64,000 bases of DNA from Nitrospirota bacterium. GTDB lineage: Bacteria; Nitrospirota; Nitrospiria; SBBL01; JAADHI01. The DNA is taken from NCBI GenBank assembly GCA_029261165.1, contig JAJDBV010000037.1:1-64000 (forward strand), in the 5' to 3' direction. The position numbers were made by a program, and so were the translations under genes. Below are positions 2,614 through 30,580 of the stretch, piece by piece; the first letter of the stretch is position 1; each line of letters opens with the position of its first letter. The notes beneath the pieces are model-generated. The model worked only from the letters and a program-made list of their open reading frames with translations. It was not told where the DNA came from and ran no database searches.

Positions 2614-2935
2614 CGTTATATATCGGCCCTGTCAGATAATTTCTCATCAACACGCATAGCGAGCGCAATCCCAGCCTTTCTCGGACAGGATTCGGCGAGT
2701 GGAAACCTTTAGGAGGTTACTCGCTTTCGGGTAGGAGAATCCCCGCCCCACTTAGAGAACCGGTTTCTTCAATATATCGGACCTGCATGTCGATGGCAAC
2801 CTTTCGGGAGGCGTGATCTCTCGGTCACAATGGTAATGCGGCAAAGAAAGAGAGCAGGTGGCCAATTTTTGATTTTTAATATCTTCAATGTTAGACTTGG
2901 ATTCACAAATCAAACTAGAAGGAAACGTACAAACC

Positions 2936-3832
2936 ATGCCGGAACAACATTTTTTGACGTCGCCGCAGCGCCGGACGGAGCGGCTGCCTTCCTGGTTCAG
3001 GGTTAAACGGGAAACGGGGAAGCATTATCTGAGGATCCGTCATCTCGCAAAGCGCCTCAACCTTCACACCGTCTGCGAAGAGGCGCGTTGTCCTAATATT
3101 TGGGAATGTTGGAATAATGGCACGGCAACCTTCATGATTCTTGGAGAGATCTGCACCCGAAGCTGCGGGTTCTGCGCGGTCACGTTCGGTCTTCCGAATG
3201 AACTGGACCGCTCTGAACCGGCCCACTTGACGGAAGCGGTCGCCGCGTTGGACTTGGGGCATGCCGTGATTACGTCCGTGAACCGGGACGAACTGGAAAA
3301 CGGCGGGGCCGAGATCTTCTCCGAATCAATCACGCAAATCCGTGCGCGTTCCCCGAAATGCACGATTGAAGTTCTCATCCCCGACTTTCAGGGGAAGAAA
3401 AGCGCGCTTGAGATCGTTCTGGACGCGCGTCCCGACATCCTGGCCCATAATATGGAGACGGTCTCACGGCTCTACCGACATGTCCGACCGCAAGCCCAAT
3501 ACACGCGATCCTTACAGGTTCTGACCTGGGCGAAGGAAGAAGGCCTGCTTACAAAAACAGGCCTGATGCTCGGTCTCGGCGAGACGATTGATGAGGTCCG
3601 CACCGTGATGGCCGACCTGGTGGCCGTTGGCTGCGACATTCTCACCCTCGGACAATATCTCCAGCCAACGGAAAAACACCTCCCCATTGCTCGCTTCGTC
3701 CACCCGGATGAATTTACGCAACTTAAAGAAGAGGGAGAGGAAATGGGACTCTCCCATGTCGAGTCCGGTCCTCTCGTCCGAAGCTCCTACCACGCCGAGG
3801 CACAAGCCGGCGCGCTGCCCATGGCGCGATAA
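2936..3832 (+). CDS. lipA: Lipoyl synthase
   Basis: This radical SAM enzyme inserts two sulfurs into protein-bound octanoyl groups to make lipoyl cofactors for 2-oxoacid dehydrogenases and the glycine cleavage system. Both cluster motifs are present: CEEARCPNIWEC (auxiliary 4Fe-4S) and CTRSCGFC (SAM-binding 4Fe-4S), followed by TSVNRDEL, VLIPDFQG, HNMETV and GLMLGLGET. An upstream ATG at 2888 would add 16 residues but has no ribosome-binding site. The ATG at 2936 follows AGAAGGA by 12 bases and gives a normal-length N-terminus (298 residues). A TPR gene starts 15 bases downstream and may be co-transcribed. No lipB is in the window. Confidence 0.95.
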   Translation: MPEQHFLTSPQRRTERLPSWFRVKRETGKHYLRIRHLAKRLNLHTVCEEARCPNIWECWNNGTATFMILGEICTRSCGFCAVTFGLPNELDRSEPAHLTEAVAALDLGHAVITSVNRDELENGGAEIFSESITQIRARSPKCTIEVLIPDFQGKKSALEIVLDARPDILAHNMETVSRLYRHVRPQAQYTRSLQVLTWAKEEGLLTKTGLMLGLGETIDEVRTVMADLVAVGCDILTLGQYLQPTEKHLPIARFVHPDEFTQLKEEGEEMGLSHVESGPLVRSSYHAEAQAGALPMAR

Positions 3833-22900: not shown

Positions 22901-25393
22901 CTAGCAGCAGTTTTCCGGTTCGCAACAGGCCTCATCATCGTCAGACGCGGATTCCCTGACCCTGAATGCGTCTCCCTCAGTAACCACAAAGGAGGATCGA
23001 TAAGGGGCCTCCTGGAGTTTGGCCGCCGTATCGGTGCAGACCTCAACCTCCTGATCTCTTGGAAAGAGATGCCCCTCTTCATCAACGACGGCCTGCATCG
23101 GCCCGAGGTAAACCGCCTTCTGGCCGATATAGGTGCACCCCGCCTTTTTCTCAAATTTGTAGCCTCGAATCACCACGGAATAAAAGCGGTACCCTTCAAC
23201 CTCTTTCCAGAGATCTTTCTTAATGATTGAAAGTCCGTAAAAACCGGCCCGTTCCAGGTCGGCCAGATATGCTTCCTCTGTAAGCGCCCCAGAAACACAC
23301 TCTCCCCATAAACGGGGATTGGCCTTCATTCCCTCTGGAACCGGTTTTTCCGAGATTGTATCGGAGATGACGATTCTGCCGAAATCTTTCAAAGCACGCC
23401 AGATCTCGATGAAGACCCTTTTTTTATCGGGGGAGAGGTTGATCACGCAGTTGGAAGTGATGAGGTCGGCAAACTGATCCGGCAGGGGGATCTCTTCAAG
23501 ATAACCTTTCCTGAACTCAATATTCTCATACCCGAGGTTCCTGACCACCTTTTCTTTTGCCGCATGTGCTTTTTTCAACATCCGGTCCGTCATGTCAATT
23601 CCAATCACTTGCCCCTCGGGTCCCACCTTTTTTGCGGCGATAAAACAGTCGATTCCGCCGCCGGAGCCGAGATCAACCATCACCTCTCCGGCTTGTATCC
23701 CGGCAAGCCCGACCGGGCTCCCGCAGCCATAGGAAATCTCCAGGACTTCTTTCGGGATATGGTCGCAATCCTCTGTCGGGTATCCTTCCGGGCAGCAAAG
23801 TTCGGGCTGGGGTGTTTCCGCGGCATCCCCGTAGAAATCACTGACCACCCGTCTTGAATGGTCGAGATCGACAGACAAAACACAGGCCGAGCGGGAAAGC
23901 GCCACTTCAAAGCCGTCGCGAGAGGGCGCCCCGGGCTTCTCATCGTCTCGAATGGCATGTTCTCCCATTGAAGCAAAGAGGACGGGCCGGTCATATCCGG
24001 AAGGGGTTTTTCGATGAGATCCTTCTTCTGCAAGGGTGGAAAGGACTTCCAGTATCCATTTTTCATGAAATTCCGAGAAGGGGTCTTCTCCCATCAGTTG
24101 TGTGCTGTAGAGGAAGGTATGTTCCAGGTCTCCGCCGCCACAGAGATATTTGAGATAACAGTCTTTACACTTGGCCTTTCTTTGTACCGTCTCCTTTCGG
24201 ATTTCATCGGCGACAGGCGATGTTCTCCAGATATTTTCAAGGGAATCTTCTACAGGATTTCCCATCTGAAGCGAGGAGATTCCCGCCAGGGCCGCTGATG
24301 GATAGACCTGCCCGTCGGCATAAACACAAAGGGATTCGTAAGCGGTATTTGAAAGGTCGGATTTTACACCGGAACGGCCCATTAGACGGCTTTTGAGAGA
24401 GTCGAGATTGTCGAAGGTCATACCCGCCTGTTCTGTCGCCTCTCTAACCTTCGTGAAGGCCTCAAGCAATGCCGTTGCGGGAGGAGAGGAGAGCGTTTCC
24501 GACGCAAGCCCTCTCCCGCGGTGATGACTCAGGAGGAGATGGATGTTTTTGATCCCGAGTGAGGAGGCAAGGTGGACCATCTCTGTGAGAGAGGAAATAT
24601 TGGCACGGTTCACAACGGTCGTCAGGGTAGGAGAAAAACCCAGGCCGATCGCTTCCTTGATCCCCCGGACGGCGGCGTCAAAGGTTCCCTTTCCCCGAAT
24701 CGGATCATTGATTCCTGCGGTGGGGCCATCCAGACTGATTTGTAGTCTTAGACGCAGTGGATCATAGTCGGCCAGGCGTTTCAATTTCGCACCGCGAAAG
24801 AGCATGCCATTTGTCAGGATGATCAACTCGGTTTGCGTATTGGGGGCTAAGATCCGGTCGATCAGATCAAAGATATCATCACGAAGAAAGGGCTCTCCTC
24901 CGGTGATGTAAAACCGGGTCACACCCAGCGCACGCCCCTGATCGATTGTGTTATACCAGAATTCTGTTCCCTCCCCCGGGAGACCGCTTGGAGAGGAATC
25001 GACCAGGCAGTGGGAACAGGAGAGGTTGCAGGCATTAGTCACGTGGAGCCATAAGTCTGAAAGATGATCGAGTTGAAGAACTTCTGCTCTTCCGGGATAA
25101 GGTGCGCGGTGAAAGGGATGCGTGGAAACAAAACCGCTCCGAATGGCATCCTGCAGAAAGGTTCGGCAATGCAGCCAGCCTTTTGTCCAATCCACCTTTT
25201 CTTCCCGGCAATATCTGGCAACGATCTCGGTAAAGTTTCTCCCTTCGATGGATCGCATCAGGTCCGCACCGCGCGTGTCTGTGGCAATCCAATGAGGTGC
25301 CTCCGGATCGATCAGAACATTCCGCCCTCGACTGACATGCTCCTGATAGACTGGAACGAAGAATCGACTATTTTCTTTAAAATGATCAGACAT
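22901..25393 (-). CDS. PqqD-like / radical SAM-SPASM / ArsM-like methyltransferase fusion
   Basis: The 830-residue protein joins four parts. Residues of about 1-105 resemble a PqqD-like peptide-recognition domain. Radical SAM motif CNLSCSHC is at C122, C126 and C129, followed by an ITGGEP-type motif and a SPASM region with CKDCYLKYLCGG. Residues of about 530-743 are a SAM methyltransferase with DLGSGGG (574-580) and cysteines C557 (YGCGSP), C649 (SNCVINL) and C699 (ECVSGAL). This spacing closely matches the As(III)-binding triad of ArsM, and an extra CC lies at 533-534. A C-terminal domain (from about 744: CTYIGQKAVYLGP, VCTDTAAKL) ends in CCEPENCC. Inference: it methylates and alkylates an arsenical, or modifies an arsenic- or metal-bearing substrate. 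No precursor peptide gene is adjacent. A Crp/Fnr gene is divergent. Confidence 0.88.
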   Translation of the reverse strand: MSDHFKENSRFFVPVYQEHVSRGRNVLIDPEAPHWIATDTRGADLMRSIEGRNFTEIVARYCREEKVDWTKGWLHCRTFLQDAIRSGFVSTHPFHRAPYPGRAEVLQLDHLSDLWLHVTNACNLSCSHCLVDSSPSGLPGEGTEFWYNTIDQGRALGVTRFYITGGEPFLRDDIFDLIDRILAPNTQTELIILTNGMLFRGAKLKRLADYDPLRLRLQISLDGPTAGINDPIRGKGTFDAAVRGIKEAIGLGFSPTLTTVVNRANISSLTEMVHLASSLGIKNIHLLLSHHRGRGLASETLSSPPATALLEAFTKVREATEQAGMTFDNLDSLKSRLMGRSGVKSDLSNTAYESLCVYADGQVYPSAALAGISSLQMGNPVEDSLENIWRTSPVADEIRKETVQRKAKCKDCYLKYLCGGGDLEHTFLYSTQLMGEDPFSEFHEKWILEVLSTLAEEGSHRKTPSGYDRPVLFASMGEHAIRDDEKPGAPSRDGFEVALSRSACVLSVDLDHSRRVVSDFYGDAAETPQPELCCPEGYPTEDCDHIPKEVLEISYGCGSPVGLAGIQAGEVMVDLGSGGGIDCFIAAKKVGPEGQVIGIDMTDRMLKKAHAAKEKVVRNLGYENIEFRKGYLEEIPLPDQFADLITSNCVINLSPDKKRVFIEIWRALKDFGRIVISDTISEKPVPEGMKANPRLWGECVSGALTEEAYLADLERAGFYGLSIIKKDLWKEVEGYRFYSVVIRGYKFEKKAGCTYIGQKAVYLGPMQAVVDEEGHLFPRDQEVEVCTDTAAKLQEAPYRSSFVVTEGDAFRVRESASDDDEACCEPENCC

Positions 25394-25544: not shown

Positions 25545-26237
25545 ATGCAGAAAAGTAAGATATGGTACCTTAAAAAAATACAACTTTTTAAAGAAATGAC
25601 CTCGGAAGAGATGGGAGAGTTGGACCGAATTACCCGAATGGAATCGGTCAAGAAAAAAACCCCCATTTTCTTCCCTGGTGATCCAAGCCAGCAAGTCTAT
25701 CTCTTAAAGGAAGGACGTGTCAAGATTTCTCGGGTTTCAGAGGATGGGCGGGAGGTGACGATCGCCCTCCTGGAGCCGGGGGAGATTTTTGGCGAGCTGA
25801 ATGTTCTTGACGATTCGCCCCGGGACACCCTGGCAGAAGCCTTGGACGACAGTCAGATCTGTGTGGTCAATAAAGAACTCTTTCTTTCCATGGTCCAGAA
25901 AAAACCGGAATTTTCCTTTCGTTTGACGAAGTTGATCGGCCTTCGCTTAAAACGAATCGAAAGCCGGGTAGAGGATCTTGTCTTTCGGGATGTGCCGACA
26001 CGGCTGGCACATCTCCTTCTGGAACTTTCAAAAGACTACGGAAAGGCAACAAAGGATGGAATCCAACTTCAGATCAAGATTACGCACCAGGAAATAGCGA
26101 ATCTTATCGGGTCGATTCGGGAAACGGTGAGTGCCGTCCTCGGAGACTTTAAAAGAGAGGGATTGATTGCCTTTGAGGGGCGGATCATTGTCCTTCTCAA
26201 ACCCGAATCCCTGGAAAAACGCCTCGATCCACGCTGA
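25545..26237 (+). CDS. Crp/Fnr-family transcriptional regulator
   Basis: The 230-residue protein has a cyclic-nucleotide-binding fold (VYLLKEGRVKISRVSEDGRE, GEIFGELNVLDDSPR) and a C-terminal winged helix with ITHQEIANLIGSIRETVSAV as recognition helix. It lacks the cysteine cluster of FNR, so it is not an iron-sulfur oxygen sensor. The ligand is unknown. It is divergent from the radical SAM-ArsM fusion with a 151-base shared region, so it may control that gene; no clear FNR-type palindrome was found there. Confidence 0.9.
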   Translation: MQKSKIWYLKKIQLFKEMTSEEMGELDRITRMESVKKKTPIFFPGDPSQQVYLLKEGRVKISRVSEDGREVTIALLEPGEIFGELNVLDDSPRDTLAEALDDSQICVVNKELFLSMVQKKPEFSFRLTKLIGLRLKRIESRVEDLVFRDVPTRLAHLLLELSKDYGKATKDGIQLQIKITHQEIANLIGSIRETVSAVLGDFKREGLIAFEGRIIVLLKPESLEKRLDPR

Positions 26238-29297: not shown

Positions 29298-29467
29298 GTG
29301 GGTTCTTATTTCTGGTTGCCGGTCTTATGGGCGCGGCTTCTCATTATTCCTCTCATCATGTGCGTTGTCTCCGATATGTTGCAGACTAGCCACACCATTC
29401 AGCCATGAGTTTTGGGGCCTTAAGTCAAGACGCGATTTTAGCACTCAATAGAGGAGGCCACTTCTAA
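29298..29467 (+). pseudogene. Remnant of membrane-anchored FMN-binding glutamate synthase
   Basis: One frame (29298-29408) reads GSYFWLPVLWARLLIIPLIM then SDMLQTSHTIQP and stops. A second frame (29405-29467) reads MSFGALSQDAILALNRGG and stops. These match the membrane N-terminus and the MSFGALS segment of a glutamate synthase subfamily other than the CDGSH fusion at 445. About 50 residues between them and the whole barrel after them are missing, so this is a heavily deleted fossil. Confidence 0.6.
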
Positions 29468-29595
29468 AAGCTTTGCATCAAGAGCTTGCACAGCCTTTGT
29501 GGGAGAGGAATTAAAAGAAATTTCTTGCCCACCTCACGCATCTGGTCTGCGGTAACCGCCGGAACTTCAAATCCTTTGTCTGTCTTGAATATCAT
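29464..29595 (-). pseudogene. Possible remnant of NAD(P)H-hydrate epimerase N-terminus
   Basis: The 43-codon frame begins with a short lead and then EVPAVTADQMREV, which resembles the start of YjeF_N / NAD(P)HX epimerase proteins. Nothing recognisable follows and the frame ends at TAG. The match is short, so the family call is weak. Confidence 0.3.
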
Positions 29596-29628
29596 CACAG
29601 TCCAACATTAAACAGGTATATTCTCACT

Positions 29629-30193
29629 TCAATTCCGCTCACGGCGTAGGTTTGGATGAATCTCCAATCGATCATAGAGCCCCCATGGATTGTGTCGTCT
29701 CAACAACCTTGGGGCAAGCAATGAGAAAAGCACGAGGAACCCGCCTAGAATGAGCGAGATGCCGGAACCGTAGCTGACCAGGTCAAACGAGAAAGCTGGC
29801 AGCAGTCGGGAAAAGAGGATGACATAAAACAGGTTTCTTTCACTACATCGTTGGCAGAATTCGATACCACTTTTTAACAACCGGGTTATGACCTCTCTTC
29901 CCAAGGCCCGTGCGATGAAAAAACTCACCAATGCGCCTGCCCCGGCACCGATTACTGAATAGACGGTCCCCACCAAAGGCGATACCGGCTGCGGCATCCA
30001 GGGGGAGGCTTGGGATTGGGCTGATGACGACGGCCAATGCCATCACGAACAGATAGACAAAAGGAGCGAGTGGACCCTATCCCTCGATCAGTGCCTTGAT
30101 CCGGTCGGGATCCATTCAATCTTTCAGACCATTCTTCCAGGAAAGGACCGTCACTCCACCGACTAAAAGGGTCAACAGAGAAAACTTGATCAT
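29629..30193 (-). pseudogene. Disrupted TVP38/TMEM64 (DedA-like) membrane protein gene
   Basis: From ATG 30193 the frame reads IKFSLLTLLVGGVTVLSW, is cut by TGA (30116-30118) and TAG (30077-30079), then continues LAPFVYLFVMALAVVISPIP and DAAAGIAFG. A frameshift near 29975 is needed to continue with VYSVIGAGAGALVSFFIARA, RLLPAFSFDLVSYGSG and finally LRRHNPWGLYDRL. The segment normally between SYGSG and the C-terminus is short, indicating a deletion. There are two nonsense codons, a frameshift and a deletion. An intact relative lies at 46246. Confidence 0.8.
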
Positions 30194-30580
30194 TGACACA
30201 TCCTGCCGCCAGACTTTTCCTGATTCGGCGGAATGATTGGGCAAGTAAAATCGCTCTCTTCGTCTCCCTTCCCTTGAAGTATTTCTGGTGATGTCACCTC
30301 ATTCTATCTCCTTGATCTCTCACGGACCTTCCAGACCTCTCCCTTAAAACCGAATATGATCACTACCTCTTCTCAGAACGATCAGACCGTACAGAATTTT
30401 GACTGGCGAACTATTCTTTTGCAATAGATCGTTACTCCCACACCTATTCTATCGGCCCGCGATCAAGGGGCCAAGGAGGGTTTTATCCTTATTTGTATAG
30501 GGGCCTACATCTATATCAAATAATCTCTAATAATATAGAATGTAGACAACAACATTAAATTATTACAAAGGAGGTACGCT
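30194..30580. other. Intergenic stretch before TIGR04073 copy 2
   Basis: About 390 bases without a supported gene. Near its end is an imperfect inverted repeat, TACATCTATAT at 30506-30516 and ATATAGAATGTA at 30533-30544, followed 36 bases later by the start codon with a strong AAAGGAGG ribosome site. The repeat may be an operator or leader hairpin. Confidence 0.45.

Follow-up and report, generated by a model that had tools for sequence, protein, structure and literature searches.

Why does a single bacterial polypeptide join an RRE domain, a radical SAM enzyme and an arsenic methyltransferase? Could such a protein do alone what elsewhere takes the separate proteins ArsM and ArsS, or does its N-terminal domain point towards a peptide as the acceptor of arsenic? 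The question is raised by positions 22901-25393 of the window, by which we mean the whole analysed stretch of 64,000 nucleotides of a Nitrospirota contig. A first-pass annotation, made from the letters alone, had placed a multi-domain fusion here and suggested that it makes an organoarsenical, possibly on a peptide or carrier. An open reading frame encoding 830 aa with this architecture does occupy the interval, though on the minus strand; the plus strand is riddled with stops. No account of an RRE / radical SAM / ArsM fusion was found in the open-licence PubMed Central literature. On the strength of homology and genome context, we regard the protein as probably a single-chain organoarsenical synthase that replaces the ArsM and ArsS pair in arsenosugar-type biosynthesis. 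Its parts, and the gene that diverges from it, are as follows.

22901..25393, minus strand: RRE / radical SAM / ArsM fusion protein, 830 aa, whole ORF
25136..25369, minus strand: N-terminal RRE (PqqD-fold) domain, residues 9-86 (AlphaFold2 and Foldseek; no Pfam match)
24494..25057, minus strand: radical SAM core, residues 113-300 (PF04055, E=4.6e-19; Foldseek)
25007..25030, minus strand: CX3CX2C motif C122/C126/C129 (CNLSCSHC, residues 122-129), invariant in 73/73 homologues
24122..24343, minus strand: SPASM-like region, residues 351-424, with C356, C409, C412 and C418 (PF13186, E=3.4e-6)
23156..23857, minus strand: ArsM-type SAM methyltransferase domain, residues 513-746 (NF008823; PDB sequence and fold matches)
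23792..23797, minus strand: CC pair C533-C534, position of the first ArsM cysteine, invariant in 73/73
23723..23725, minus strand: C557, corresponding to C72 of CmArsM (alignment, homologue conservation)
23447..23449, minus strand: C649, corresponding to C174 of CmArsM (alignment, homologue conservation)
23297..23299, minus strand: C699, corresponding to C224 of CmArsM (alignment, homologue conservation)
22976..23155, minus strand: ArsM C-terminal domain, residues 747-806 (phmmer)
22904..22960, minus strand: disordered Cys tail CCEPENCC, residues 812-830 (pLDDT <50)
25545..26237, plus strand: Crp/Fnr-family regulator, divergent, 151 bp from the start of the fusion, conserved there in same-family genomes

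AlphaFold2 modelled the fusion, with 73 homologues, at a mean pLDDT of 88.5 and a pTM of 0.86. In Foldseek, the full model matched ArsM structures best, followed by SkfB, SuiB, anSME, ChlB and PqqE, the last five of which correspond to the radical SAM core. Because a Pfam search for PqqD gave no match at E-values up to 10, the RRE domain was assessed through its fold: the first 104 residues alone (pLDDT 93) match TbiB1, lasso B1, McbB, PqqD (5sxy) and CteB, in agreement with the PqqD-like domain originally read from the sequence. The radical SAM motif CNLSCSHC, also picked out at that stage, sits within the Pfam Radical_SAM match, and Methyltransf_31 is matched further downstream (E=1.4e-29). 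What had been described as a further C-terminal domain proves to be that of ArsM, the phmmer alignment to 4kw7 and 5evj reaching residue 803-804, and the CC...CC tail is present at the C-terminus.

Is the methyltransferase half a genuine ArsM? By sequence as well as by fold, CmArsM, CrArsM and AS3MT are the best PDB matches of the domain. The top Foldseek matches are 6cx6, 4fr0, 5evj and 8xt7, all of the ArsM fold, and the best single match is 6cx6, CmArsM with As(III) and SAH bound. Cysteines 44, 72, 174 and 224 form the ArsM signature (PMC5552862). In the phmmer alignment, C557, C649 and C699 fall on positions 72, 174 and 224 of the 4kw7 chain, with the CC533-534 pair upstream and all of these residues kept in 73/73 homologues; the ArsM-like spacing claimed for the triad is thereby an exact alignment to C72, C174 and C224 of CmArsM. 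These three positions are the As(III) ligands of CmArsM. From this alignment and the fold match to ArsM, the three cysteines of the fusion are expected to converge. Homologues devoid of the triad would have spoken against an organoarsenical role; all 73 possess it.

The fusion scores 234.6 bits with the ArsM model NF008823 and so misses the cut-off of 263, as does the ArsS-linked ArsM of Nitrospira (237 bits); none of the NCBIfam models reaches its cut-off on the fusion. In a tree of 57 methyltransferase domains, in which rooting is undefined and some branches are long, the fusions and the ArsS-linked ArsM proteins split from 18 other stand-alone ArsM with a support of 96/97. ArsS-linked ArsM proteins further resemble the fusion in their C-terminal domain and in the type of their CC tail. 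Those of Nitrospira (395-411 aa; L044-L047, L144, L145, L153-L156) carry this C-terminal domain twice and end in CAPxGxCC. A separate canonical ArsM is present in several fusion genomes as well.

The radical SAM half has a different affiliation. ArsS adenosylates arsenic during oxo-arsenosugar synthesis (PMC12159101), and membership of its family was ruled out for the window protein, which scores 51 bits with TIGR04167 (ArsS; cut-off 300) and reads TGGEP where ArsS has TGGAPE. Profile comparison with ArsS finds only the common radical SAM core to be shared. Since the radical SAM half is not an ArsS, the fused pairing seems to have arisen separately. The window has another radical SAM ORF (2888-3832, plus strand), which reads like lipoyl synthase and is ordinary.

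How widespread is this architecture? The database search that the first-pass annotation had called for recovers the full-length fusion outside the genome of the window, mostly in MAGs, with at least 80 loci from about 12 phyla: Nitrospirota, Acidobacteriota, Planctomycetota (including the anammox bacterium Scalindua), Elusimicrobiota, Omnitrophota, Zixibacteria, Latescibacterota, Lindowbacteria, Wallbacteria, Armatimonadota, Nitrospinota, Hydrogenedentota and others. Full-length relatives show 47-72% identity, 68-72% within the family of the window, and copies occur across its class. The fusion is far beyond chance, being found at full length both in relatives and in these other genomes. One Nitrospirota genome (G023) holds three full-length copies, on contigs C18, C2 and C47. 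Two loci (L104 and L105) have matching neighbourhoods with identical spacings, yet are titled Acidobacteria and Chloroflexi, so one of the two MAGs is probably mislabelled or mis-binned; the same may be true of a Hydrothermarchaeota copy (L062).

Conservation within the family is uneven. C122, C126, C129, C504, C533, C534, C557, C649 and C699 are unchanged in all 73 aligned homologues, as are GGEP of the radical SAM part and GGGD at residues 419-422, and the tail cysteines C829 and C830 are kept in 72/73 and 71/73, respectively. The SPASM-like cluster noticed at the outset is a different matter: C356, C409, C412 and C418 are present in the window protein, but all four occur in only 42 of the 73, and we dropped the cluster as a family feature. 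Most of the 31 homologues lacking the full set have D/N and T/L/S at the last two cysteine positions. The auxiliary cluster can therefore be dispensed with, whereas the arsenic site and the cluster of the radical SAM core cannot. A divergent 833-aa fusion with 38% identity (L177:797-3298, Acidobacteriota genome G132), whose genome also encodes a separate ArsS, keeps the As triad and is without the CC533-534 pair, the SPASM cysteines and the CC tail.

Does the fusion take the place of ArsS? Among 58 Nitrospirota genomes, 20 encode a full-length or nearly full-length fusion and 33 an ArsS (TIGR04167 over its cut-off), while only one (G014) encodes both (Fisher p=3e-9). With fragments counted, 55 of the 58 have a fusion or an ArsS and 2 have both. 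Counted by genus, the fusion is found in 15 and ArsS in 9, with both in 1 and neither in 1 (p=1e-4). Three families (f5, f9 and f10) contain fusion as well as ArsS genomes, so the pattern is not one of clade versus clade. Across many phyla, ArsS occurs in 2/50 fusion genomes. TIGR04283, the arsenosugar glycosyltransferase (here and for TIGR04282, the names are those of the NCBI annotation), is found in 57/58 Nitrospirota genomes and in 37/50 fusion genomes of many phyla; the remaining 13, many of them incomplete, have no TIGR04283 over the cut-off. Of 119 Acidobacteriota, TIGR04283 is encoded by 5/5 genomes with a close fusion, 13/15 with ArsS and 13/99 with neither; exclusivity of fusion and ArsS is not significant in this phylum alone, because only 5-6 fusion genomes were sampled. 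The genome of the window itself carries TIGR04283 on contig C17 and TIGR04282 on contig C63, and a search for ArsS (TIGR04167) found none. As the fusion resides mostly in genomes without ArsS, it probably builds arsenic-carbon compounds, for example arsenosugars, in the place of ArsS. The organoarsenical product proposed earlier is supported on this basis of homology and context, which points to the arsenosugar type. Where the first-pass annotation had described ArsS and ArsL as neighbours of ArsM, the fusion appears to do duty here for both ArsM and ArsS.

The gene neighbourhoods tell a similar story. Among the 80 fusion loci listed, the partners are PiT (32), VTT/TVP38 (26), a MerA-like FAD oxidoreductase (23), DUF547 (18), TIGR04283 (15) and TIGR04282 (10); within the DNA available around each locus, at least one of these six families is present in 53/80 and at least two in 32/80, against a rough chance expectation of at most about one locus per family, assuming 1-2 copies per 3-4 Mb genome. 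The PiT transporter gene is adjacent and co-directional in 23 of the 80. ArsS loci likewise contain VTT and MerA-like genes and, overlapping downstream, PiT: the order ArsM-ArsS-PiT is found in G041 and G046, whereas in G013 and G014 ArsS is accompanied by genes for a sigma factor, VTT and a MerA-like protein. ArsM-ArsS adjoins arsC, ACR3 and arsR in G044, G046 and G018. A search of the fusion neighbourhoods for ars genes, also advised at the outset, was rewarded with an ArsC-like gene after PiT in G014 and G028, and with an ArsC-ACR3 gene together with ArsR in L086. In the family of the window, the fusion stands alone beside the Crp-like gene, outside the PiT/VTT/MerA-like cluster; this divergent Crp/Fnr-family gene is a possible regulator of the fusion. 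The isolated position counts against the synthase reading, as do the 13 fusion genomes without TIGR04283 over the cut-off and the low ArsS score of the radical SAM half. A VTT/TVP38-type gene of the window (29464-30244, minus strand; PF09335 match in ORF 29629-29997) appears to be split over several frames and is therefore either disrupted or misassembled. The VTT genes found with the fusion in other genomes are intact.

Could the RRE domain nonetheless bind a leader peptide, with the radical SAM and methyltransferase domains installing an arsenical on an arsenic-containing RiPP? The N-terminal fold and the resemblance of the radical SAM part to SuiB, SkfB and PqqE would fit. Yet the small precursor genes expected beside the fusion did not turn up: of 659 small ORFs lying up to 2.5 kb from 75 fusion copies, none forms a conserved recurring family beyond a thioredoxin-like ORF shared by four close relatives. 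A peptide substrate is unlikely given this lack of recurrence. The SPASM cluster, on which RiPP maturases rely, lacks some or all of its cysteines in 31/73, and the partners are glycosyltransferases, PiT, VTT and MerA-like proteins rather than proteases or peptide exporters. The proposed link to a peptide or carrier is thus not borne out, and we judge the RiPP route very unlikely. An ArsL-type transfer of an aminocarboxypropyl group to arsenic, in an arsinothricin-like route, has a precedent in ArsL plus ArsM, which make arsinothricin (PMC8552651), and the arsinothricin ArsM model gives the second-best NCBIfam score of the methyltransferase domain. This score, 198.6 bits, is far under the cut-off of 500, however, and both the arsenosugar-type partner genes and the exclusivity with ArsS argue against such a route, which we consider unlikely.

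Two further readings set aside the arsenic-carbon chemistry of the radical SAM half or the arsenic itself. The methyltransferase might merely detoxify, producing methylarsenicals, with the radical SAM domain as an accessory or acting at a later stage on some other substrate. ArsM by itself often serves as a resistance enzyme, and the window gene is monocistronic beside its Crp-like neighbour, which is compatible with this idea; the invariance of the radical SAM motif and GGEP in 73/73, the additional canonical ArsM of several genomes and the replacement pattern with ArsS make it quite improbable. Could ArsM-like chemistry instead act on another metalloid or acceptor, such as selenium, antimony or tellurium? 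The MerA-like FAD oxidoreductase in the gene context may hint at this, but the exact As(III) triad, the ArsC-like and ACR3/ArsR genes near some fusion copies and the partners common to ArsS loci (one such locus borders on arsR-ACR3-arsC) leave it with very little probability indeed.

How, then, would a single-chain arsenosugar-type synthase work? C557, C649 and C699 would bind As(III), which would be methylated with SAM in two steps, probably to the dimethyl state, as deduced from ArsM and ArsS. By analogy with ArsS, the radical SAM domain would then add a 5'-deoxyadenosyl radical to the trivalent methylarsenical, and the product would be carried on by TIGR04282/TIGR04283 glycosyltransferases, neighbouring or distant. 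More speculatively, arsenic may be ferried between the two active sites by the flexible CC tail together with C504, a cysteine of the linker. The RRE domain, which has no peptide partner in view, may dock the tail of the same chain or some other protein. A bolder and rather doubtful version combines these steps: the RRE, normally a reader of leader peptides, would be re-used to dock the Cys tail of its own chain when loaded with arsenic (or else a partner protein) and would hand arsenic from the methylating to the radical site, in a one-chain arsenosugar-precursor synthase whose evolution was independent of ArsS and which has reached a dozen phyla. If the synthase reading is right, the radical formation of arsenic-carbon bonds has a second enzyme that is not orthologous to ArsS. 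This enzyme would be common in genomes from groundwater, the ocean, anammox bacteria and Nitrospirota that current ArsS-based surveys score as negative, and it would explain how arsenosugars or arsenolipids could arise in those lineages. It would also exemplify an RRE fold in use with no peptide substrate in view, and would provide one purified protein for studying methylation and radical transfer together.

How does the fusion compare with known systems? Like the RRE-radical SAM/SPASM maturases of RiPPs (SuiB, SkfB, CteB, and PqqE with PqqD), it combines an RRE, recognised here by fold only, with a radical SAM core and a SPASM-like region; unlike them, it has an ArsM attached, its auxiliary-cluster cysteines are often lost instead of conserved, and no adjacent precursor peptide gene was found. 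With the ArsM/ArsL pair (PMC8552651) it would share the action of a radical SAM enzyme and an ArsM on arsenic, although ArsM and ArsL are separate genes in a different context. Fold, SAM site, As(III) triad with N-terminal cysteine, and C-terminal domain are those of ArsM (CmArsM, AS3MT, NF008823), but the fusion carries its methyltransferase behind a radical SAM/RRE half and scores 235 bits against the ArsM cut-off of 263. The ArsM/ArsS arsenosugar pair (TIGR04167, NF038099) consists of two genes, its ArsS has no RRE domain, and the radical SAM half of the fusion lies outside the ArsS family; nevertheless, both systems have in common the methyltransferase clade, the CC tail and the partner genes, and the fusion also occupies the genome and cluster role of ArsS among arsenosugar genes, with shared partners and mutual exclusivity.
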